Origin: Flavipsychrobacter sp.
GTDB taxonomy: Bacteria; Bacteroidota; Bacteroidia; Chitinophagales; Chitinophagaceae
NCBI GenBank assembly: GCA_031292525.1
Contig: JARLGY010000037.1
Coordinates: 124,001 to 188,000 of the forward strand
Reading direction: 5' to 3'
DNA: 64,000 nucleotides
The notes under the pieces were generated by a model. It worked only from the letters and a program-made list of their open reading frames with translations, did no database searches and was not told the origin of the DNA. Position 1 is the first letter of the stretch. Each line of letters opens with the position of its first letter. Shown piece by piece: positions 998 to 13,609 of this stretch. The translations under genes and the position numbers were made by a program.

Positions 998-1435
998 TTA
1001 CAGCACCTTTACACTAAACGTCAGTATTTTATAATATTCAGGATGCTCTTTATCATATAGCTTAAATTTCACTGTACCGGCACCAGGATGCTGTTCTGGC
1101 AACACATGAATGGCAATAAAGCCTTCCTGTCCTGGGTTCAGCCTCTTAAAAACAGAACCTTTGGGGATTCCTATCTGGCATTTTCCGTGCTGGCACATAG
1201 AGCAATCCCAGGCTTGTGGAAAGGTATTGGAGATCGTTTGCCATTCCAGGTAAATGGGTTTATCAGATGTATTAACAACGGTCATCTTCGAATTTTCAAG
1301 GTAGCCGGTATGCTCTACGAGTTCTTTTTTTACGGAATCCCCTTGTACCATAAAGGTGCCCCGGCTTTGCGCATGGGCCGCAGTGCACATAAAAGAAAGG
1401 ATTAAAATAAAATACCTGGTCATCGTGCGTGTCAT
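998..1435 (-). CDS. Small secreted protein of unknown function, cupredoxin-linked
   Basis: 145 residues with a Sec signal peptide (hydrophobic core about 8-18, cleavage near AHAQ). The mature part is rich in beta strands with an Ig-like or DUF1573-like feel (NTSDKPIYLEW), and contains a CSMC motif at about 78-81 followed by HGKC, giving three closely spaced cysteines plus a histidine that could bind metal or form a disulfide. Its ATG overlaps the upstream cupredoxin stop as TAATG, so the two are translationally coupled and probably act together outside the cytoplasm. A second in-frame ATG four codons downstream is possible. I do not recognise the family; a copper-related role is inferred from context. 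Confidence 0.75.
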   Translation of the reverse strand: MTRTMTRYFILILSFMCTAAHAQSRGTFMVQGDSVKKELVEHTGYLENSKMTVVNTSDKPIYLEWQTISNTFPQAWDCSMCQHGKCQIGIPKGSVFKRLNPGQEGFIAIHVLPEQHPGAGTVKFKLYDKEHPEYYKILTFSVKVL

Positions 1436-2382
1436 TATTGAGTTATTAAAACCGGTATTTTTTGAATCTGTATTGGGGTATCCTGGCCTTCATTTTTAAA
1501 AGCGTAACTCACAAAACCGTTCAGCACATTATCTGACGAAACAAGTATTTCATAAGCATCCAGGGGCTTTAAAATTAGTGTATTCACCGCATCATGTGCA
1601 GAAAGTGGCACTGCATTCTTTGTAAGAACGGTGAGCTTCATCTCTTTGGGGAACGTTACAACATGCTGCATCAACCCCGTATTTCCCAGACGAATGAGCA
1701 CCGTTTCGCCAACTTTAGCGCTAAACCTTGCGGGACTTGTCAGTTGACCATTCCTCTTGTCATTTATAAAAAAATATTGGGGGTGGTATTTCAGTTGTTC
1801 TACCATTTTGGATATTTGTTCTTGTTCGGCATCCAGTATCGAATCTGTATGCCAGGCGGTATCCATTTCAAACCCGCACCACAGCAGTTCCTTCGAAATG
1901 TGCTTATGGTAAATTTCATATTCCAGTTTGGGCCTTACTATCAATATCCCAAACATCCCGGCTTGTACATCCAGTGGATAATTAACAGGGCAGTAGTAAA
2001 TATAAGTCCCCGCATGGTTGGCCGTAAAACTGTAGTAGCCATGCTCCATGTGGTGTATGTTATCATCCGTATATATTTCGTGTGGTTCATTTCGTTTTTG
2101 AAGCTGAATGCCCTGTATCCATATATCATGCGGGTTGCCTTGCGATACATTCCAAAAATCTATTTCAAGGCTATCTCCTTCCCGCGCTTCTATCGTGGTG
2201 CCGGGCAAACCAGGCAGTTCATTAAGCTTTGCGGCAAAGCCAAAAGTCCGCACTTGGCTACCATCACTTAGGGTCAGGCTGCTGCTGTTTCTGCCAACGA
2301 TCATGGGTCGTTTTATTTGGCCGTGAGCACAAAACCCAGGTACAAGAAAGCACAATAAGCAGAGAATTCCCCTCATAGTCAT
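1435..2382 (-). CDS. Secreted two-domain cupredoxin / multicopper-oxidase-like protein
   Basis: 315 residues with a signal peptide (about 1-21). Two cupredoxin-like domains are visible: residues about 45-150, with NPHDIWIQG, HHMEHGYYSF and a closing GTYIYYC-containing strand ending in AGMFG; and about 200-300, with GETVLIRLGNTGLMQHVV. The first domain resembles the C-terminal copper-site region of multicopper oxidases and nitrite reductases: H85, C131 and M143 sit where type 1 copper ligands are expected, but the second histidine between Cys and Met is not present (CPVNYPLDVQAGM). It therefore may bind copper atypically or not at all. It is coupled to the small cysteine-containing protein downstream and divergent from the tyrosinase, with about 125 bases between them. 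Confidence 0.7.
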   Translation of the reverse strand: MTMRGILCLLCFLVPGFCAHGQIKRPMIVGRNSSSLTLSDGSQVRTFGFAAKLNELPGLPGTTIEAREGDSLEIDFWNVSQGNPHDIWIQGIQLQKRNEPHEIYTDDNIHHMEHGYYSFTANHAGTYIYYCPVNYPLDVQAGMFGILIVRPKLEYEIYHKHISKELLWCGFEMDTAWHTDSILDAEQEQISKMVEQLKYHPQYFFINDKRNGQLTSPARFSAKVGETVLIRLGNTGLMQHVVTFPKEMKLTVLTKNAVPLSAHDAVNTLILKPLDAYEILVSSDNVLNGFVSYAFKNEGQDTPIQIQKIPVLITQ

Positions 2383-2506
2383 TTTTACATTAATTCTCGC
2401 GTAAAAATAACTTTATAATAGATAAAACTATTTTATCTCACAGAAATAATATTATATTTATGCATTCCAAAAACATCAAATATCAACCTCATTAAACAAC
2501 TATAGT

Positions 2507-3988
2507 ATGCTTATTACAAATAGGTTCACCAAAGGAGTTTTATCTCTTTTTCTTATACTGCTGGTTGCTGGCACTGCAAATAGCCAGGAACTGCTAAAAC
2601 GGAAAAACATTGATTCACTAACCAGCCAGGAACTGGCTGCATACAAGCACGCCATCCAGATACTTCATGACAGAAGCATGGTAAACCCTTACGATGAAGA
2701 GGGTTATGCATGGCAGGCTTGGATACATAATGCCACTTATATTTCAATACCACAAACACCACCAAGGTCTAAAAAGCCTGGCGAGTCTTATGCCGACTAC
2801 TACAATTATATTGCAGGCCTCCGGTTTAGAGATGGCAAAGGCGTTTATCCCGGCATGTGCGAACACCGGAAAGACCTATTCATGCTGTGGCACCGGGCAG
2901 AATTTTATTACTTCGAAAAGGTATTACAAAACGCCGACCCTGCAGGCACCATTAAAGATTCAAAAGGGAATACTGGGCCATCAACTGCAAAAGTGACGGT
3001 TCCATATTGGAACTTTACAAACCCAGCTAGTGGCAAACGCTTTCCAAAAGCATTTGAAGATCCTGCTTCAGTGTTGTATCGTGGCAATAGACGCGTTGGT
3101 AAACCAGATTACCCTTTTACCAAGAAAGCATTGTTACAAGATATTATTGATGGAAAGTGGCTTGTTTTTGGTGGTTTCCCTAATGCTACAAGGGGCCAGA
3201 TAAGTGGTGGCTATGGCCGGTTTGAGGCTGAAATTCATGACGACATGCATGACACATATTGTGGAGGAGACATGAGCAGCCCCAAGACTGCAGCATACGA
3301 TCCTATTTTCTATTCTTTTCACTCCTATGTCGATTTTTATCTTGATGAATGGCTGAGACTTAACCATATGGAACATGGGTATAATTCAAACGACACGATC
3401 ACGTCGTTAGATTTTCCCTTAAGGGGCACCGTACCAGCGAAATATGATCTGCCAGATTATCACAGGAAACCAGGTGTAGATATGGGCATGGGCAGTGGCT
3501 CATTGTACCCCAACCATATACCTCTTGGATATACATACGAAGTCACACCAGAGGATCATTATGCACCTCGCGACCGTGTAAAAGAAGTGCAACCCATTTT
3601 TGGAAAAAACGCAATGAGTCTTAAAACCACATTGACAAAGGGCACATCTTTAGTAGCTAAAAATAAGGAGGGAATAAAACAAACGCAGGGTACATTAAAA
3701 GGAAACACACGCCTTCACAATGGCTTTTTAGACGTGGAATCTAACATTACCACTTCGTATAGAGTTGATGTTTATATTCACCCTAAAATCGTTAACGCTA
3801 CTATTACAGACCAGAAATTCAGAGATAAATACCTGGCAAATTCGGCAAATTATTGGATAATGGGCGATGCCTCCATGGCAGATGCTACCACCCATGTAAA
3901 TATTTATGTAGATCGCGAACTTGAAGACATAAGCAATAACTCCAACCTTAACGACTGGACTGTAACCACCAATATAACTAAACTATAA
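2507..3988 (+). CDS. Secreted tyrosinase / polyphenol oxidase (type 3 copper)
   Basis: 493 residues. A signal peptide (about 1-26, ending TANSQ) sends it out of the cytoplasm. All six copper-binding histidines of the tyrosinase family can be placed: CuA H74, H120 and H129 (CEHRKDLFMLWHRAEFYYFE region), and CuB H244, H248 and H272 (IHDDMHD and DPIFYSFHSYVD). PYWNF at about 167-171 is another family hallmark. The enzyme should oxidise mono- or diphenols to quinones with O2. The C-terminal part (about 340-493) is not part of the catalytic core and may be a beta-rich extension or lid. It is followed after 11 bases by a protein with two heme-less cytochrome-like repeats, probably in one operon. 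No classical MelC1 caddie protein is visible. Confidence 0.9.
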   Translation: MLITNRFTKGVLSLFLILLVAGTANSQELLKRKNIDSLTSQELAAYKHAIQILHDRSMVNPYDEEGYAWQAWIHNATYISIPQTPPRSKKPGESYADYYNYIAGLRFRDGKGVYPGMCEHRKDLFMLWHRAEFYYFEKVLQNADPAGTIKDSKGNTGPSTAKVTVPYWNFTNPASGKRFPKAFEDPASVLYRGNRRVGKPDYPFTKKALLQDIIDGKWLVFGGFPNATRGQISGGYGRFEAEIHDDMHDTYCGGDMSSPKTAAYDPIFYSFHSYVDFYLDEWLRLNHMEHGYNSNDTITSLDFPLRGTVPAKYDLPDYHRKPGVDMGMGSGSLYPNHIPLGYTYEVTPEDHYAPRDRVKEVQPIFGKNAMSLKTTLTKGTSLVAKNKEGIKQTQGTLKGNTRLHNGFLDVESNITTSYRVDVYIHPKIVNATITDQKFRDKYLANSANYWIMGDASMADATTHVNIYVDRELEDISNNSNLNDWTVTTNITKL

Positions 3989-3999
3989 AAAGCGATAGT

Positions 4000-4593
4000 A
4001 TGGCAGACCCAACAATAACATTTGAAGAACACATAAAACCCATGTTTGCAGATTACCAGGCAGTAATGTTGAAACATAACATCGATCTGCTGGACTATGC
4101 TACCGTTACAAGTCGGCATGAGCGCATGACAGTTTTAATGCATGGGCACGAACGTAACGAAGACGGAGAATACATTTCACCCCGTCGCATGCCAACCACC
4201 CATCCCTTCCCTCAAAGGAAATTAGACCTCTGGGCAAAGTGGATAGCAGACGGTATGGTTGAAGGTGAACCTGTTGCAGCAATGCCGGCAGATACTGTTA
4301 TTACATTCGATGATATAAAGCTGGTATTTGAAGATTACAGAGATTCCATGCTGGAAGTTAAAATAGCTACCCCCACTGGGCTGGTTCCACTGGACCTGTG
4401 GGACTACGAATTAGTTAAAAGCCAGAACGAGCACATAAGCAGCGTACTTCATGGCCGGGAAACAGACGAAAATGGTGTTCCCAGATCAAGCCATCCCATG
4501 CCGCCCGCAAATGCACTTGCTCCACAAAATTTAAAAAAGTGGGATAATTGGATAGCAGGAGGAATGATTAAAAACAAAGGTCAAGCTGTGTAA
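4000..4593 (+). CDS. Tandem heme-less cytochrome-c-like protein, tyrosinase partner
   Basis: 197 residues without signal peptide. Two repeats are obvious: about 6-88 and 100-190. Each has ITF-[ED]-[ED]-x-I-K at the start, an aspartate-tyrosine helix (LDYATV / LDLWDYELV), a histidine-rich centre (SRHERMTVLMHGHE / NEHISSVLHGRE), a Met-Pro turn (RRMP / HPMP) and a closing helix (LDLWAKWIADGM / KKWDNWIAGGM). The start, MP turn and final helix follow the pattern of planctomycete-type cytochrome c domains, but no CXXCH is present, so no c-type haem is expected. The many His and Met residues would suit copper handling. The cytosolic prediction contrasts with the exported tyrosinase just upstream, so a pre-export chaperone role is one possibility. 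Function is unknown. Confidence 0.75.
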   Translation: MADPTITFEEHIKPMFADYQAVMLKHNIDLLDYATVTSRHERMTVLMHGHERNEDGEYISPRRMPTTHPFPQRKLDLWAKWIADGMVEGEPVAAMPADTVITFDDIKLVFEDYRDSMLEVKIATPTGLVPLDLWDYELVKSQNEHISSVLHGRETDENGVPRSSHPMPPANALAPQNLKKWDNWIAGGMIKNKGQAV

Positions 4594-4637
4594 TAGGTAC
4601 TACTTCGCGGATTATTAATGTTATTTTGATGCAATGC

Positions 4638-4673
4638 AACAGATCCCCTGGAAATTATTTCAGGGGATCTGTT
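4638..4673 (+). terminator. Hairpin terminator after the tyrosinase operon
   Basis: AACAGATCCCCTG and CAGGGGATCTGTT form a perfect 13-bp stem around a 10-base AT-rich loop, followed by a T-containing tract. It lies 45 bases after the stop of the heme-less repeat protein. Confidence 0.75.
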
Positions 4674-4733
4674 GTGTTATGATGATAGACAGTTAGTCAC
4701 CCAAAATGGCTAAACATCCTTTCAAATAAAAAT

Positions 4734-4764
4734 GGGCAAGTTTGCGTGATCTGCAAACTTGCCC
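4734..4764 (-). terminator. Hairpin terminator for the haem c lipoprotein gene
   Basis: GGGCAAGTTTGC / GCAAACTTGCCC form a perfect 12-bp stem with a 7-base loop. Read on the minus strand it is followed by CATTTTTATTTG and lies 23 bases after the stop of the lipoprotein gene. Confidence 0.8.
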
Positions 4765-4787
4765 ACAAAAAACAAATAATAAGGCAT

Positions 4788-6602
4788 CTATTTTTTCATA
4801 CTTGCCGGTACTTTCGGCAACGGTATTATCGTACTGAAAATATGGCTCAAACCAAATGTACCTGGAGATAGTGTTTTGCCTTTATGACAGCGGAAACAGT
4901 TACCGGTTGAAGTTTGGTCGTATGTTTCCATAGCACTGTTTACTAATAAGTTTGTACCCACAGAAGCGCCTGGCTTTGTATTGGTGGCTGAGTACGGCTT
5001 CCCGGTAGGGTTAGCTCCCGCCTGGGTCCATGTTGCGCCAATTAGCCGGTAATGCTTGCGCACGTCTTTCCCTACTAGCTGGCTAATTACTGAGTTATTT
5101 ATGCTGATGACTTGGCTGTTAGACTCTGCTGCACTTTTATTTTCTGGGTTCGGCACCGATCCCTTTGCAGTGCCAAACGGGTTAATAAGTTGAGTAGGGC
5201 TGGCAGAGATTACATGGCCTTCAGTACTCTCTATGTTCAGGCCATCGTTTATCATATAAGGAACGTTGAAATTGACACCTGAAGTTGAATTGCACAGTAC
5301 CCAGCCTGTGCCTGAATCAGCAGCAACAGAAACCGTTTTCCCTGCTGTATCAATGTAGTCATAGGCTCCGTTTGGTGCGTTGTTTTTATGTTCAAACGTA
5401 GCCCATATCATCTCCGGGTTGCCGGCAACACTGCCCACAACATGTATTCCTATAAGTGCAAGTTTAGTTTTCCTTGTGCCCTTTGCCACCCATTTGTGTT
5501 TATCAGAAGTATCATAGTTTGGCACCATAGCATCGATCGTAACATAGCTATCAGGATCCTTAAGACCAGCTGTCTCCACCAATGCAAGTTTTAACTCCAT
5601 TGCCAGTGCATTTGAATCGGGCAGAACTATGCCTTTTTTCCGGGCATAAGCACAAATGTTATTTCTTGCTGTATCGGTAGTCGGGAAAAAAGAATTACGG
5701 GCAAAGGGCACATTTTCTTTGTAAGCAGTGAGGTAGTAAGCATATACGTCGTTCACCATCATTGCATAATACACAATGGAGTTGTTCTGTGCAGCTATCA
5801 GCACATCTCCTGTAGCCTGGCCCACTGCAATAGTATGCTCATCGCCGGCAGTATCTATAAATACTTTTTTGCCACCTATCTCCAATTCTTCCACTATCGC
5901 ATCCTGGTTCGTAGTATGCTGTAGAATGGCCCTTGGGTGTTCAATAATTGCATTATGTTCATCTCTAAAAATATGGTGTAGCGGGTCAGCACCTTCTTCT
6001 ATTTTGGCAACTTTTTTATTTTGCTTGATGCCATTCGCTGTCTTTGACAAAACAGATCCTGCTGCTTTTTCATTATGTACTTCTACTTCAAGCAATTCAC
6101 CTTTATCATCTACTACTATAGGCAATCCATTAGGACCTGTTTGCTTAATTGCACTAGATACACTGATCAGGGTGCCTGGATTATGACGTGTCATGGTACG
6201 ATTTCCGTCTACCTCTTCCGATACATCATAGAATACTGTATCCTCCATAACTGTATTACCAGGCGCATAGCTTGTACCCTTAGCAGGAGACAGCAGCCAA
6301 AGGAACATCTGTTCTGACCAAAGGTAAAAATCGCAATTGGTCTTATCAGGAAAAGTAACACTGTTGGCTGCCATTACTTTACCATTTTCTATTGCTTTCC
6401 CGCCCGTGAACCAGGAATTGAATATTTCCGGCGAAACAGTACAAGTTCTAGCTGCGTCCTGCGGCAGGCGGTTATCCACCTGCGTTTCCGTTTTAGTTTC
6501 AGTTGTGGTTGTGCTGGTCTTCTGGGTCGTTTCTGACCCGCAACCGCCTAAGACGGAAGCGCCAAAAAGGCCAGCGACCAATATTAAATTACTTTTTGAC
6601 AT
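4788..6602 (-). CDS. Large lipoprotein with one C-terminal haem c site
   Basis: 604 residues. A lipoprotein signal ends LGGC (Cys21), followed by a Ser/Thr/Lys linker, so the protein is anchored in a membrane facing the periplasm or outside. The long middle part (about 50-540) contains many short beta segments and is not recognised. Near the C-terminus there is a canonical haem-binding CFRCH (C569, C572, H573) in a GNCFRCHKG context, making it a mono-haem cytochrome-like protein. A possible axial methionine lies in the last residues (ASMKK) but cannot be assigned. It probably shares a transcript with the 82-residue gene upstream, 151 bases away. The location next to the tyrosinase and heme-less repeat protein suggests a shared extracytoplasmic oxidation pathway; this is inference. 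Confidence 0.75.
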   Translation of the reverse strand: MSKSNLILVAGLFGASVLGGCGSETTQKTSTTTTETKTETQVDNRLPQDAARTCTVSPEIFNSWFTGGKAIENGKVMAANSVTFPDKTNCDFYLWSEQMFLWLLSPAKGTSYAPGNTVMEDTVFYDVSEEVDGNRTMTRHNPGTLISVSSAIKQTGPNGLPIVVDDKGELLEVEVHNEKAAGSVLSKTANGIKQNKKVAKIEEGADPLHHIFRDEHNAIIEHPRAILQHTTNQDAIVEELEIGGKKVFIDTAGDEHTIAVGQATGDVLIAAQNNSIVYYAMMVNDVYAYYLTAYKENVPFARNSFFPTTDTARNNICAYARKKGIVLPDSNALAMELKLALVETAGLKDPDSYVTIDAMVPNYDTSDKHKWVAKGTRKTKLALIGIHVVGSVAGNPEMIWATFEHKNNAPNGAYDYIDTAGKTVSVAADSGTGWVLCNSTSGVNFNVPYMINDGLNIESTEGHVISASPTQLINPFGTAKGSVPNPENKSAAESNSQVISINNSVISQLVGKDVRKHYRLIGATWTQAGANPTGKPYSATNTKPGASVGTNLLVNSAMETYDQTSTGNCFRCHKGKTLSPGTFGLSHIFSTIIPLPKVPASMKK

Positions 6603-6753
6603 ATTATTTAGTGTGTGTGATGAATTGAAATATTGTTGAGATAAAAAATACCGATCTAAAAAATAACGTTATCATCATTTCCAAGACCGGTAATTTTGAG
6701 CAGTTTACCTACCGCATAGTATTGATGAGCACATCAATTTTTTGTTCAATTAC

Positions 6754-7002
6754 CTAAGCGCAGGGATTAGGCGTTTCCATCCATGCTTTAAAATTTGCAC
6801 ACATTTCTGGTGTCCATCTGGTACCACCTTTAGGCATGTTGCCGCTTATAACCCGGTCGTAAATGTCACTTGCATTTTCTAATACGCTGGTACATTGGTC
6901 AAGGGCAAGTCCATATCTCGCCATACAACTAATATCTTTTGGCGTAAAATACTTGCTGATGCAGGCCCATGTAGGGTCTAAGCAAATTCCATTTTGTTCC
7001 AT
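6754..7002 (-). CDS. Short heme-less cytochrome-c-like protein with six cysteines
   Basis: 82 residues, no signal peptide or membrane segment. The layout, a DPTW..I..YFT start, a DIYDRVISGNMP turn and a WTPEMCANFKAWM closing helix, matches one repeat of the 197-residue protein beside the tyrosinase and the general cytochrome c pattern of this window, yet the CXXCH haem motif is absent. Six cysteines (C7, C14, C26, C37, C68, C81) are striking for so small a protein and could bind metal. ATG lies in a GTTCCATG context without a Shine-Dalgarno. It is upstream of and in the same direction as the haem c lipoprotein. The family name is not known to me. Confidence 0.65.
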   Translation of the reverse strand: MEQNGICLDPTWACISKYFTPKDISCMARYGLALDQCTSVLENASDIYDRVISGNMPKGGTRWTPEMCANFKAWMETPNPCA

Positions 7003-7700
7003 GTTTCTATTGTTTTAAATATTTTATCCCTACTCTTTTCGGGCTTTTCGGAGACGCCCCCGTATTTTAATTCCTGTTTCGGCCAGGCTTATTGTTATCG
7101 TTCAAAAGTGCTTGAGAATTGAAATTTCCAACGGCAATTGGATCATTGTCACTTTACCTTTTGCTAATAACCTTTAGCCTCCTTGTCGTTTTCCCTTTAT
7201 GTGTGATGCGCGTCTTCATTGCAGCCACTTATCGAAAAGATATTTTTTATTTCAGACCAATAACCATCCAAATAATCAGAATATTAAAAGCAAAATGAAC
7301 ACAGAAACCTTATACATTAACTTAAGAGCTTCTTGATGTTTAAGGGTATTTTCTATAAAAAATTACAAATCAAAATTATAATTCATGCCAAATTAATAAG
7401 GTATTTTCACCTATGCAAGTGTTTTTGAATTTATTTTATGAAAATTTTCAGTATGAATATATAATTACAATTCGGGGGCTGCTGATTCATTTATTTTTGA
7501 TCCCGTAATCGCACACGTTTTCACAAGTCATAGTATATTTCATGAGACAAAAAGACAACTTAAAACAGATCTTGATGGTATAAAAAGAATTGATAATTGT
7601 AAGTTAACGCCACTTAAACAAGATGTTAACCATAGCCCCACATTACGAATATTACATTCTAATGAAGTACTTTTGTATCATCAATCATAATAGCATTAAA
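7003..7700. other. Long non-coding gap upstream of the exosortase locus
   Basis: About 700 bases without a supported gene. It must carry the promoter of the leftward 82-residue gene and of the rightward exosortase substrate. One exact TAnnTTTG box (TATTTTTG) lies at 7492-7499, about 200 bases before the substrate start, implying a long leader if used. The right half is very AT-rich. No strong hairpin or repeat was found. Confidence 0.4.
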
Positions 7701-7988
7701 ATGCAAACAAGTAAGACATTAAATCTAACAAAATTAAAAGTAGTTGCATTAAGCCTATTCTTAGCAATGCCATTCGCCGGCAGAGCTGATGATACCAATC
7801 CTAATGGCAATAATGGTAATCACGCCGATGGTGGTAATAACGGGAATGGAAAAGGAAACGAAGGAGACAGCCCTTCAACTCCTGTAAATACCAATTTGGT
7901 AATTCTGGCTTTGGCTGGTGGTACGCTTGTTACTACTGCAGGATTTTTATACAAGAAAAACAATTCAACAAAGAGCATATCTTTATAA
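7701..7988 (+). CDS. Exosortase substrate with PID-CTERM-like sorting signal
   Basis: 95 residues from the ATG at 7701; a longer frame begins at 7623 but its extra residues are not signal-peptide-like. Order: N-terminal signal peptide (about 10-29, ending GRAD), a low-complexity Asn/Gly/Asp linker (about 32-58), then a C-terminal tripartite signal: PVNTN at about 61-65, a hydrophobic helix of about 17 residues, and a basic YKKNN tail. This is the arrangement of the PID-CTERM / PEP-CTERM class. The protein is essentially two targeting signals joined by a flexible, probably glycosylated spacer. It sits 4 bases before the exosortase gene, which strongly suggests it is that enzyme's dedicated substrate. 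Confidence 0.8.
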   Translation: MQTSKTLNLTKLKVVALSLFLAMPFAGRADDTNPNGNNGNHADGGNNGNGKGNEGDSPSTPVNTNLVILALAGGTLVTTAGFLYKKNNSTKSISL

Positions 7989-7992
7989 AGAT

Positions 7993-8568
7993 ATGAGCTC
8001 ACCAGTAGAACGGCTGAAGGCTGCATACTTGCATCTGCCAGTATTTCTAAGAATATTCTTTATAAGAAGCCTCCTGATATTTATTATCTGGAAAGCACTA
8101 TATCTACTTGTTCTTGCTCCCACCAGAGTACCTGATAAGTATATAACCAAAGCTACTGCGCACAGTACAAGTTTTGTATTAGGGATAATAGACCATAAAT
8201 TGGCACCATCGGTTTACTATGATGGGTATGAGAATATTACGGTTGAAGTAAACAACAAACGCATTAGGTCTATAAGAATAGCAGACGAATGCAATGCGCT
8301 GGAGTTGGCGGTCTTGTTTGTTGGTTTTTTATTTTCACTTCCATATACATTTAAGAAACAGCTTCTTTACTCAGTTTTAGGACTAGTGCTCATCTACCTG
8401 GCTAATATTATCAGGTGTAGCTTGTTGGCTTTGATATACATATCCAAACCCGACTTTTTCTTTTTCGCACATCACTACCTGTTTATTTTCATAATTTACC
8501 TTATCATATTCTCTATCTGGTACAAATACACAATTAGTTTTATCCGTTATCTGAATGCCAATAAGTAG
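7993..8568 (+). CDS. Exosortase-family transpeptidase (Bacteroidota small type)
   Basis: 191 residues, several transmembrane helices (about 22-42, 105-118, 123-150, 162-180). The exosortase catalytic triad is in place: Cys100 in ADECNALE, Arg141 in NIIRCS and His160/His161 in FFAHHY. The enzyme should cleave the sorting signal of its substrate at the membrane and hand it to an acceptor. Size and motif spacing fit the compact, single-substrate exosortases of Bacteroidota (XrtF/XrtX-like); the exact subtype cannot be fixed from the sequence alone. The chosen ATG is 4 bases after the stop of the substrate gene, and its end overlaps the next gene by 14 bases, so the three form an operon. Confidence 0.85.
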   Translation: MSSPVERLKAAYLHLPVFLRIFFIRSLLIFIIWKALYLLVLAPTRVPDKYITKATAHSTSFVLGIIDHKLAPSVYYDGYENITVEVNNKRIRSIRIADECNALELAVLFVGFLFSLPYTFKKQLLYSVLGLVLIYLANIIRCSLLALIYISKPDFFFFAHHYLFIFIIYLIIFSIWYKYTISFIRYLNANK

Positions 8569-8950
8569 ATTAGCTATACTTATCATACTGATTATTGTTG
8601 TTTCAGCTGTTCCATTTGTCTTCATTTATCCAAATGGTTATGGTAGTACAACAGTACCAGCCAGTATTAAATATTTAACAGACGCGCTTACCATTATCAC
8701 TATCTTCTCGCTTGGCTATTATATTTTCCGCAAGATATCTGTCTTTTTCATCCGCTTTATCTGGGTCGGTATTTATTTACTTTCCTTTTTGTTTATAGCC
8801 GGTATATCCTTGTACCTAAAAGTACAAACACACTGGGATGCCTCCACCTATAATACTATGATGGCTATTTTTACAATGGTAGCTAGTCCTGTACCATTCA
8901 TCATATTGTTATTGATCAATACGATCATCAGGAAAACAATTAAAAAATAA
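8555..8950 (+). CDS. Exosortase-associated integral membrane protein
   Basis: 131 residues with four predicted transmembrane helices (about 5-24, 38-57, 64-86, 103-122). No catalytic motif is visible. It overlaps the exosortase gene by 14 bases and is followed by a strong bidirectional terminator, so it completes a three-gene unit. Bacteroidota exosortases are often followed by a small membrane partner of this size (the XrtX-associated type is one such annotation); its role, perhaps acceptor supply or complex stability, is not known. The assignment rests mainly on context and topology. Confidence 0.65.
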   Translation: MPISRLAILIILIIVVSAVPFVFIYPNGYGSTTVPASIKYLTDALTIITIFSLGYYIFRKISVFFIRFIWVGIYLLSFLFIAGISLYLKVQTHWDASTYNTMMAIFTMVASPVPFIILLLINTIIRKTIKK

Positions 8951-12913: not shown

Positions 12914-13609
12914 ATGAGAATTTCAAAACGATCTAAAATATCTGTCTGTTTAATAACCATAATGCTAAGTGTTATTTTAATTAACTCCTGTACTCATGCC
13001 CCCTACGTCTTGCCTGTAAATCTACGCACCGGCGATCCAACAATTTGTTTCGAAAGGGATATACTGCCCATTTTCCAATCTAATTGTGCAAAAGGTGGAT
13101 GTCACGATGCAAGTAGTGGACGCAGTGGCTATGTACTAGATAACTACAAAGATGTCATAAAGAAAGGTATAGTTCCCGGTAACCCGGCTGCAAGTAAAAT
13201 ATGGCAATCCATAAGCATGAAGATCTTCAATGTGGAGGTTATGCCTCAAGACGGCCCTTCTTTATCTGCTACAGATCTTGACCTTATAAAGCGCTGGATA
13301 GCAACCGGGGCTATTGATAGCGGCGCGTGCAGCACCAACAATTGCGATACTACAAGCTTCACCTACAGCGGCACAATAGCGCCGTTGATGCAAAAATACT
13401 GCATCGGCTGCCATAATTCCCCTTCTGTCGCTGGGGGTAGTCTTGCAGATTATACAAGTGTAAAAGATGCCGCAGTTAATGGAAGGTTGCTCGGCGATAT
13501 AGAACATCTGCCGGGATATAATGCTATGCCACTAGGTGGTAATATGCTGGAAGATTGTCAGATAACTCAGGTAAAAAAATGGGTAGCTGCAGGTGCTCCA
13601 AATAATTAA
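12914..13609 (+). CDS. Lipoprotein with two cytochrome-c-like domains (CX4CH and CXXCH)
   Basis: 231 residues, lipoprotein signal with INSC (Cys26). Domain 1 (about 41-133) starts TICFERDILPIFQSN and holds a non-canonical haem motif C58-AKGG-C63-H64; it ends DLIKRWIATGA. Domain 2 (about 148-230) holds a canonical CIGCH (C163, C166, H167) and ends KKWVAAGAP. MP turns (EVMPQDG, NAMPLGG) offer axial methionines. The pattern fits periplasm-facing planctomycete-type cytochromes. It opens a run of five or six rightward genes with short gaps, all exported, suggesting a membrane-bound redox unit. Whether the CX4CH site is really haem-loaded is uncertain. Confidence 0.85.
   Translation: MRISKRSKISVCLITIMLSVILINSCTHAPYVLPVNLRTGDPTICFERDILPIFQSNCAKGGCHDASSGRSGYVLDNYKDVIKKGIVPGNPAASKIWQSISMKIFNVEVMPQDGPSLSATDLDLIKRWIATGAIDSGACSTNNCDTTSFTYSGTIAPLMQKYCIGCHNSPSVAGGSLADYTSVKDAAVNGRLLGDIEHLPGYNAMPLGGNMLEDCQITQVKKWVAAGAPNN

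Follow-up and report, generated by a model that had tools for sequence, protein, structure and literature searches.

We have analyzed a group of six genes around a tyrosinase gene in a stretch of 64,000 nucleotides from Flavipsychrobacter sp. (contig JARLGY010000037.1, positions 124,001 to 188,000; hereafter the window). Two of these genes encode haem-less proteins that resemble cytochromes. On sequence comparison, the domain that they share looks like an undescribed cytochrome-derived partner domain of type-3-copper-fold proteins; it is observed linked and fused to such proteins, and may be expected to bind them. The genes and repeats are listed below by window position. The expected values (E) of the haem-less proteins are those of one domain profile in its own genome, the three window copies being themselves rows of that profile.

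998..1435, minus strand: CxxC protein gene; 145 amino acids (aa), CSMC motif, signal peptide; no Pfam or NCBIfam match
1435..2382, minus strand: cupredoxin-like gene; 315 aa, two domains; Pfam Cu-oxidase_3 (8.9e-10) and Cu-oxidase (1.9e-4)
2507..3988, plus strand: tyrosinase gene; 493 aa; PF00264 (3e-22, over cut-off)
4000..4593, plus strand: two-repeat haem-less protein gene; 197 aa; profile E 4.9e-23 and 2.9e-19
4015..4260 (approximate), plus strand: haem-less repeat 1; D-Y-Q-A-V-M in place of CXXCH, distal M64-P65 by alignment
4300..4569 (approximate), plus strand: haem-less repeat 2; D-Y-R-D-S-M in place of CXXCH, distal M167-P168 by alignment
4788..6602, minus strand: haem c lipoprotein gene; 604 aa, lipobox LGGC, one CFRCH near the C-terminus
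6754..7002, minus strand: six-Cys single-domain haem-less protein gene; 82 aa; D23-I-S-C26-M27 and M56-P57; profile E 1.7e-28

All six open reading frames were found where the first-pass annotation had placed them. The tyrosinase and two-repeat genes lie on the same strand with a gap of 11 base pairs (bp), the cupredoxin-like and CxxC genes abut each other and are divergent from that pair, and 151 bp separate the haem c lipoprotein gene from the six-Cys gene upstream of it. Matches to Pfam or NCBIfam are confined to the tyrosinase and the cupredoxin-like protein. The proposal of one tyrosinase-centred neighbourhood stands; all six genes are present, and the set is kept, in the same order and with 77-94% identity, in the sister genome G063 (the JABDEZ metagenome-assembled genome), the sole other genome of the genus Flavipsychrobacter compared. 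A related-locus search of genome contigs with the window tyrosinase returned the sister genome only, and the viral contigs searched gave no matches.

Both haem-less proteins contain one domain family of ~74 aa. Single-sequence searches with the two-repeat protein gave no match outside the genus; the repeat profile led to a small protein in genome G291, a relative of the six-Cys protein, whose gene directly adjoins that of a 607-aa haem c protein. With the G291-locus and window proteins as queries, further members were found on alphaproteobacterial plasmids, giving a 16-row domain alignment (A3). The wider survey covered 395 Bacteroidota genomes and a plasmid collection. No meaningful match of the domain to Pfam or NCBIfam was found in any member tested. 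In the 395 genomes the A3 profile returned its own rows (G000 and G291), then a domain fused to a tyrosinase in G032 (E 3.0e-20), and then a second tier at 1.3e-8, 4.6e-8, 1.8e-7 and onward, per genome. Chance as the source of the domain matches is rejected by the E value for G032 and by the several fusions described below.

The best second-tier matches contain CXXCH within the match and span approximately positions 1-72 of the 74 profile positions. Matches above E ~1e-9 were ordinary cytochromes where inspected and are excluded from all counts. In a joint alignment, CXXCH corresponds to D-x-x-[H/C]-M of the haem-less domains: the motif itself is absent from all 16 distinct domains, including those of the two-repeat and six-Cys proteins, all 16 have Met in place of the proximal His, 13 have His or Cys at the position of the second Cys, and 15 retain the distal Met of the MP turn. 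Insertions near the former haem motif occur in several members. These near full-length matches, together with the correspondence of the two motifs, support homology to cytochromes and, by profile comparison, descent of the domain from class-I cytochrome c by loss of CXXCH. The two proteins had initially been described as cytochrome-like without CXXCH, and the reach of the A3 profile to CXXCH cytochromes bears this out. The haem-less domain resembles class-I cytochromes c (the small CXXCH cytochromes of Bacteroidota; PSCyt1/Cytochrome_CBB3) in full-length profile homology, the MP turn and the closing Trp helix, and differs in the missing CXXCH, the change of the proximal His to Met and the lack of an export signal. 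The window also encodes a genuine two-domain CXXCH cytochrome lipoprotein (12914-13609; PSCyt1/Cytochrome_CBB3), a relative of the haem-less domain that does bind haem. The six Cys are not shared by the family at large. Richness in Cys or His was rejected as a definition of the family, being not conserved, and the suggestion that His, Met and Cys richness marks copper carriers fails likewise, since only the [H/C]-M and MP positions are conserved.

Twelve domain loci were counted, with near-identical replicons taken once and the window included; they belong to Bacteroidota, Alphaproteobacteria and Actinomycetota. A tyrosinase lies within 7 kb of the domain or is fused to it at 9 of the 12 loci, a haem c relative is nearby at 8, and every locus has one partner or both. 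Linked tyrosinases occur in the window genus and in B. septentrionale, in R. ruizarguesonis and R. leguminosarum A1 (~5-6 kb from the domain), and in Mesorhizobium AR10, where a domain gene starts 10 bp downstream of the tyrosinase and a second copy is nearby. On an Embleya plasmid, what is left of a truncated tyrosinase gene (L106 7656-7880) immediately precedes an intact domain gene. The order tyrosinase, then domain is common to the window, Mesorhizobium AR10 and Embleya. In G032 (E 3e-20), S. sojae, P. denitrificans and R. leguminosarum 9B the domain is fused to the tyrosinase, and it is N-terminal in all four of these bacterial fusions. The loci with a haem c partner are those of the window, G291, B. 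elkanii, R. ruizarguesonis, P. zhejiangensis, B. septentrionale, S. sojae and P. denitrificans; the domain accompanies a tyrosinase at the AR10, Embleya, G032 and R. leguminosarum 9B loci, around which the search found no haem c relative. A tyrosinase query was the first route to three loci (AR10, S. sojae and B. septentrionale). Of the eight others, window excluded, to which a domain or haem c query led first, five have a tyrosinase. For a random gene, the chance of having a tyrosinase within 7 kb is ~2e-4, a rough estimate based on the presence of PF00264 in 17 of the 395 Bacteroidota genomes. Refutation had been expected if homologues of the repeat proteins were rarely near tyrosinases, and the profile and neighbourhood searches place them mostly beside or within one.

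Several of these loci hold further genes. The G032 fusion gene (L089 5992-9352) is flanked by genes for a membrane fusion protein of the CusB/HlyD type and for a membrane protein weakly similar to MerC, a metal-efflux setting. At two loci (L016 8336-10087 and L027 5035-6768) a protein of 577-583 aa with no known family, 63% identical between the two, is encoded between the fused domain-tyrosinase and haem c genes. Upstream of the tyrosinase operon of Mesorhizobium AR10 (L017 596-4233) are genes for LodA_C-like (below cut-off), radical SAM and FAD-dependent monooxygenase proteins, a set reminiscent of the genes that mature peptide-derived quinone cofactors.

The window tyrosinase has a Sec-type signal peptide and, by alignment, all six copper ligands (H74, H120, H129, H244, H248 and H272, forming CuA and CuB), a C118-x-H120 motif and a C-terminal extension. 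With PF00264 over cut-off and six His ligands it belongs to the bacterial type-3 copper tyrosinases. Its nearest distinct relative is the tyrosinase of Mesorhizobium AR10 (34% identity; clade support 100/98). The fusion tyrosinases of G032 and R. leguminosarum 9B cluster across phyla (100/99), as do those of P. denitrificans and S. sojae with each other (100/100), in a tree whose deep branches are long and some of whose forks are unsettled.

The domain extends to a fungal enzyme of known structure. The A3 profile matches residues 659-742 of AsqI from Aspergillus nidulans (PDB 5YY2/5YY3) with E 3.2e-13, and the six-Cys protein of the window alone finds the same stretch weakly (E 0.03, phmmer). 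AsqI is a haemocyanin-like, zinc-dependent cyclopenase (PMC6053404). It shares D-R-A-C-M and the MP turn with the haem-less domain; it differs from the bacterial proteins in its fungal origin, its haemocyanin-type main domain and its use of zinc. The domain is C-terminal in AsqI, opposite to its N-terminal place in bacterial tyrosinases, and no discussion of it was found in the text of PMC6053404. On its sequence, the AsqI match places the haem-less domain with a second type-3-copper-fold protein.

The CxxC and cupredoxin-like genes form a second tyrosinase-linked unit. The CxxC gene was found in 7 of 109 Flavobacterium genomes, with products 57-62% identical to that of the window, encoded directly beside a tyrosinase; the motif WDCSMCQHGxCQIGIP is invariant across the window and Flavobacterium orthologues. 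All seven CxxC-bearing genomes have the tyrosinase less than 300 bp away, whereas none of 20 CxxC-less genomes from the same draw of Flavobacterium has a tyrosinase (Fisher p ~1e-6). Cupredoxin-like, CxxC and tyrosinase genes, in that order, make a compact operon in Flavobacterium (loci L101-L104), and the cupredoxin-like orthologues, 36-38% identical, stand beside the CxxC and tyrosinase genes in four Flavobacterium genomes. Since the Flavobacterium tyrosinases are only ~25% identical to that of the window and are placed elsewhere in the tree, the CxxC/cupredoxin pair is, as judged from its distribution, behaving as a transferable module. The cupredoxin-like protein was rejected as a working multicopper oxidase, because the type 1 and type 2/3 copper ligands are not conserved: the type-1 Cys is kept only in the window genus and is Ser in the four Flavobacterium orthologues, while the motifs HHMEH and NYP..QAGM are conserved instead. 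The protein is probably a copper scaffold rather than an oxidase. N-terminal signal-like segments are found alike in the CxxC protein, the cupredoxin-like protein and the tyrosinase. The CxxC protein, exported like the tyrosinase, is thus a better candidate for a caddie than the haem-less proteins are; it appears to be the most likely caddie analogue here and the best candidate copper chaperone of the exported tyrosinase.

Known copper-transfer partners of bacterial tyrosinases are MelC1 and PpoB2 (PMC2855505). In Streptomyces MelC1/MelC2, as in the window, a dedicated small protein stands beside a bacterial tyrosinase, and copper loading requires MelC1. The first-pass annotation had noted the lack of a MelC1-type caddie, and this is confirmed: PF06236 has no match in the genome at E up to 1, and neither the CxxC protein nor the haem-less proteins show detectable similarity to MelC1 in sequence. 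In Marinomonas PpoB1/PpoB2 (COG5486, PF09948) the operon partner delivers copper to the tyrosinase (PMC2855505); PpoB2 is a membrane protein, unlike the window candidates. PF09948 has no match in the own genome, but control genomes are likewise silent, so that its absence is unproven.

The 604-aa lipoprotein belongs to a broad and divergent set of haem c proteins, at most 35% identical, encoded beside the domain, tyrosinase and LodA/LodB genes; the identity of LodA in these neighbourhoods is backed by Pfam. It is a putative electron-transfer partner of these oxidases, as their gene linkage suggests. Operons of tyrosinase, multicopper oxidase, LodA/LodB and a small gene of 138-142 aa were noted in 2015 as group ID lodA operons (PMC4417212). 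Both these operons and the window combine a tyrosinase with a multicopper oxidase or a protein like it; LodA and LodB are absent from the six island genes and gave no blastp match in the window, so that the island is not a group ID lodA operon. Two Flavobacterium genomes, G277 (L098 3134-10799) and G476 (L099 8409-16104), have the order tyrosinase (764-775 aa), LodA, small gene, LodB, haem c, which ties quinone oxidases, tyrosinase and the haem c family together; compared with group ID operons they have a small gene of like size and LodA/LodB, plus haem c genes. A small-gene family of comparable size also recurs in the loci analyzed here (the 133-aa protein of AR10), and is presumably the small-gene family of PMC4417212. 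Cytochromes do not come up in the text of that paper, nor was the haem-less domain found there. An initial claim that no described system has this make-up stands for the haem-less domain, of which no description with a tyrosinase or haemocyanin was found in the open-access literature searched, and falls for the combination of tyrosinase, multicopper oxidase, LodA/LodB and small gene.

Outside the island, positions 7623-8950 of the window encode a small Gly/Asn-rich protein whose C-terminus bears a membrane segment, a member of the exosortase/archaeosortase family (TIGR04178 over cut-off, with XrtX nearest) and a small membrane protein; this trio is kept in the sister genome (L011 8318-9567).

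Taken as a whole, the island is best explained as encoding a secreted type-3 copper oxidase together with accessory proteins dedicated to it, including a cytochrome-derived partner domain, an explanation in which our confidence is evenly balanced; the system reading is now supported more strongly than it was by the first-pass annotation. In the periplasm, the CxxC protein and the HHMEH-bearing cupredoxin-like protein would load or protect the exported tyrosinase's copper, as MelC1 or PpoB2 does elsewhere; such a role is suggested by their close linkage, their common export and the invariant motif of Cys, Met and His. The haem-less domain would most likely dock onto a tyrosinase or haemocyanin-fold domain as a folding or metal-loading helper. 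More speculatively, it may handle copper, holding Cu(I) through [His/Cys]-Met and the distal Met at the former haem-ligand positions. The haem c lipoprotein, whose relatives accompany LodA-type quinone oxidases, may pass electrons with tyrosinase-type oxidases.

The fullest form of this reading, in which a haem-less cytochrome domain has been recruited in bacteria and fungi to type-3-copper-fold enzymes and a Cu(I) site of the kind just described replaces haem, so that the domain loads the dinuclear copper centre, is rather unlikely. Several observations weigh against the best explanation given above. The chief difficulty is that the haem-less proteins of the window are leaderless while their tyrosinase is exported. 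All free-standing haem-less proteins lack a hydrophobic segment at the N-terminus, and in the window genes the open frame reaches only 4-6 codons upstream of the ATG. As predicted from these N-termini, the haem-less proteins and the mature tyrosinase are probably in different compartments, and may never meet once the enzyme is folded. The proposed copper site is not strictly conserved: V or S occupies the [H/C] position in the window two-repeat protein, and the P. denitrificans domain has Ile for the distal Met. Three loci (G291, B. elkanii and P. zhejiangensis) have a haem c partner only, with no tyrosinase nearby. A single ion is listed for the AsqI-zinc structure (PMC6053404); it sits in the main active site, so that the domain has no reported metal. 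AlphaFold predictions from two-row alignments reached mean pLDDT of 47 and 38, too low to judge the fold.

The haem-less domain might itself be the tyrosinase caddie, with Cu(I) bound in the pocket that haem has left, by [His/Cys]-Met and the distal Met. This idea is possible, though we hold it only tentatively. It draws on the Met, His/Cys and distal Met counts given above, on fusion or adjacency to tyrosinases, and on the fused enzymes of S. sojae, P. denitrificans and R. leguminosarum, which have no signal peptide, in contrast to the window and AR10 tyrosinases, so that enzyme and domain share one compartment there. The lack of a signal peptide in the window proteins weakens copper delivery by them, and as MelC1-like caddies of an exported, Sec-dependent tyrosinase, a role once suggested for them, they are not supported; the exported CxxC protein fits better. 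The V/S substitutions of the window repeats and the zinc-dependent AsqI, with no metal reported in its domain, argue the same way.

A cofactor-free structural or dimerisation module, left over from a fusion of cytochrome and tyrosinase, is an alternative that we also consider doubtful but possible. Its place at the N-terminus of bacterial tyrosinases but at the C-terminus of AsqI suits such a module, and so does the metal-free report for the AsqI domain; the invariant Met at the former proximal-ligand position, on the other hand, argues for selection there, and free-standing copies are retained beside tyrosinase or haem c genes.

It is improbable that the haem-less proteins chiefly serve the haem c protein, in its maturation or assembly, with the tyrosinase as a frequent bystander. 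The three loci without a tyrosinase would be explained in this way, as would the six-Cys gene adjoining the haem c gene in the window, but every fusion seen is with a tyrosinase and none with haem c, and AR10, Embleya, G032 and R. leguminosarum 9B pair the domain with a tyrosinase and no identified haem c relative.

Covalent haem attachment takes place outside the cytoplasm, and a cytoplasmic location would explain the loss of CXXCH. A bis-Met b-type protein with non-covalent haem, relaying electrons between tyrosinase and haem c partner, is very improbable: Met at both axial positions in almost all members, frequent linkage to a haem c protein and the inability of leaderless proteins to obtain covalent haem outside the cytoplasm are set against the insertions near the former haem motif and the lack of any mention of haem for AsqI, the domain being part of its crystallised chain.

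The acquisition of copper by bacterial tyrosinases without a MelC1 caddie is poorly known, and the secreted oxidase and accessory set proposed here offer two uncharacterised candidate helper families. The CxxC protein is tightly linked to its tyrosinase subtype. The haem-less domain adjoins type-3 copper proteins or is fused to them in three bacterial phyla, and it occurs in a fungal enzyme whose structure has been solved. Both families consist of small, soluble proteins that lend themselves to direct testing. The domain would, in addition, clearly exemplify how a cytochrome fold can lose its cofactor while selection persists on both axial positions.

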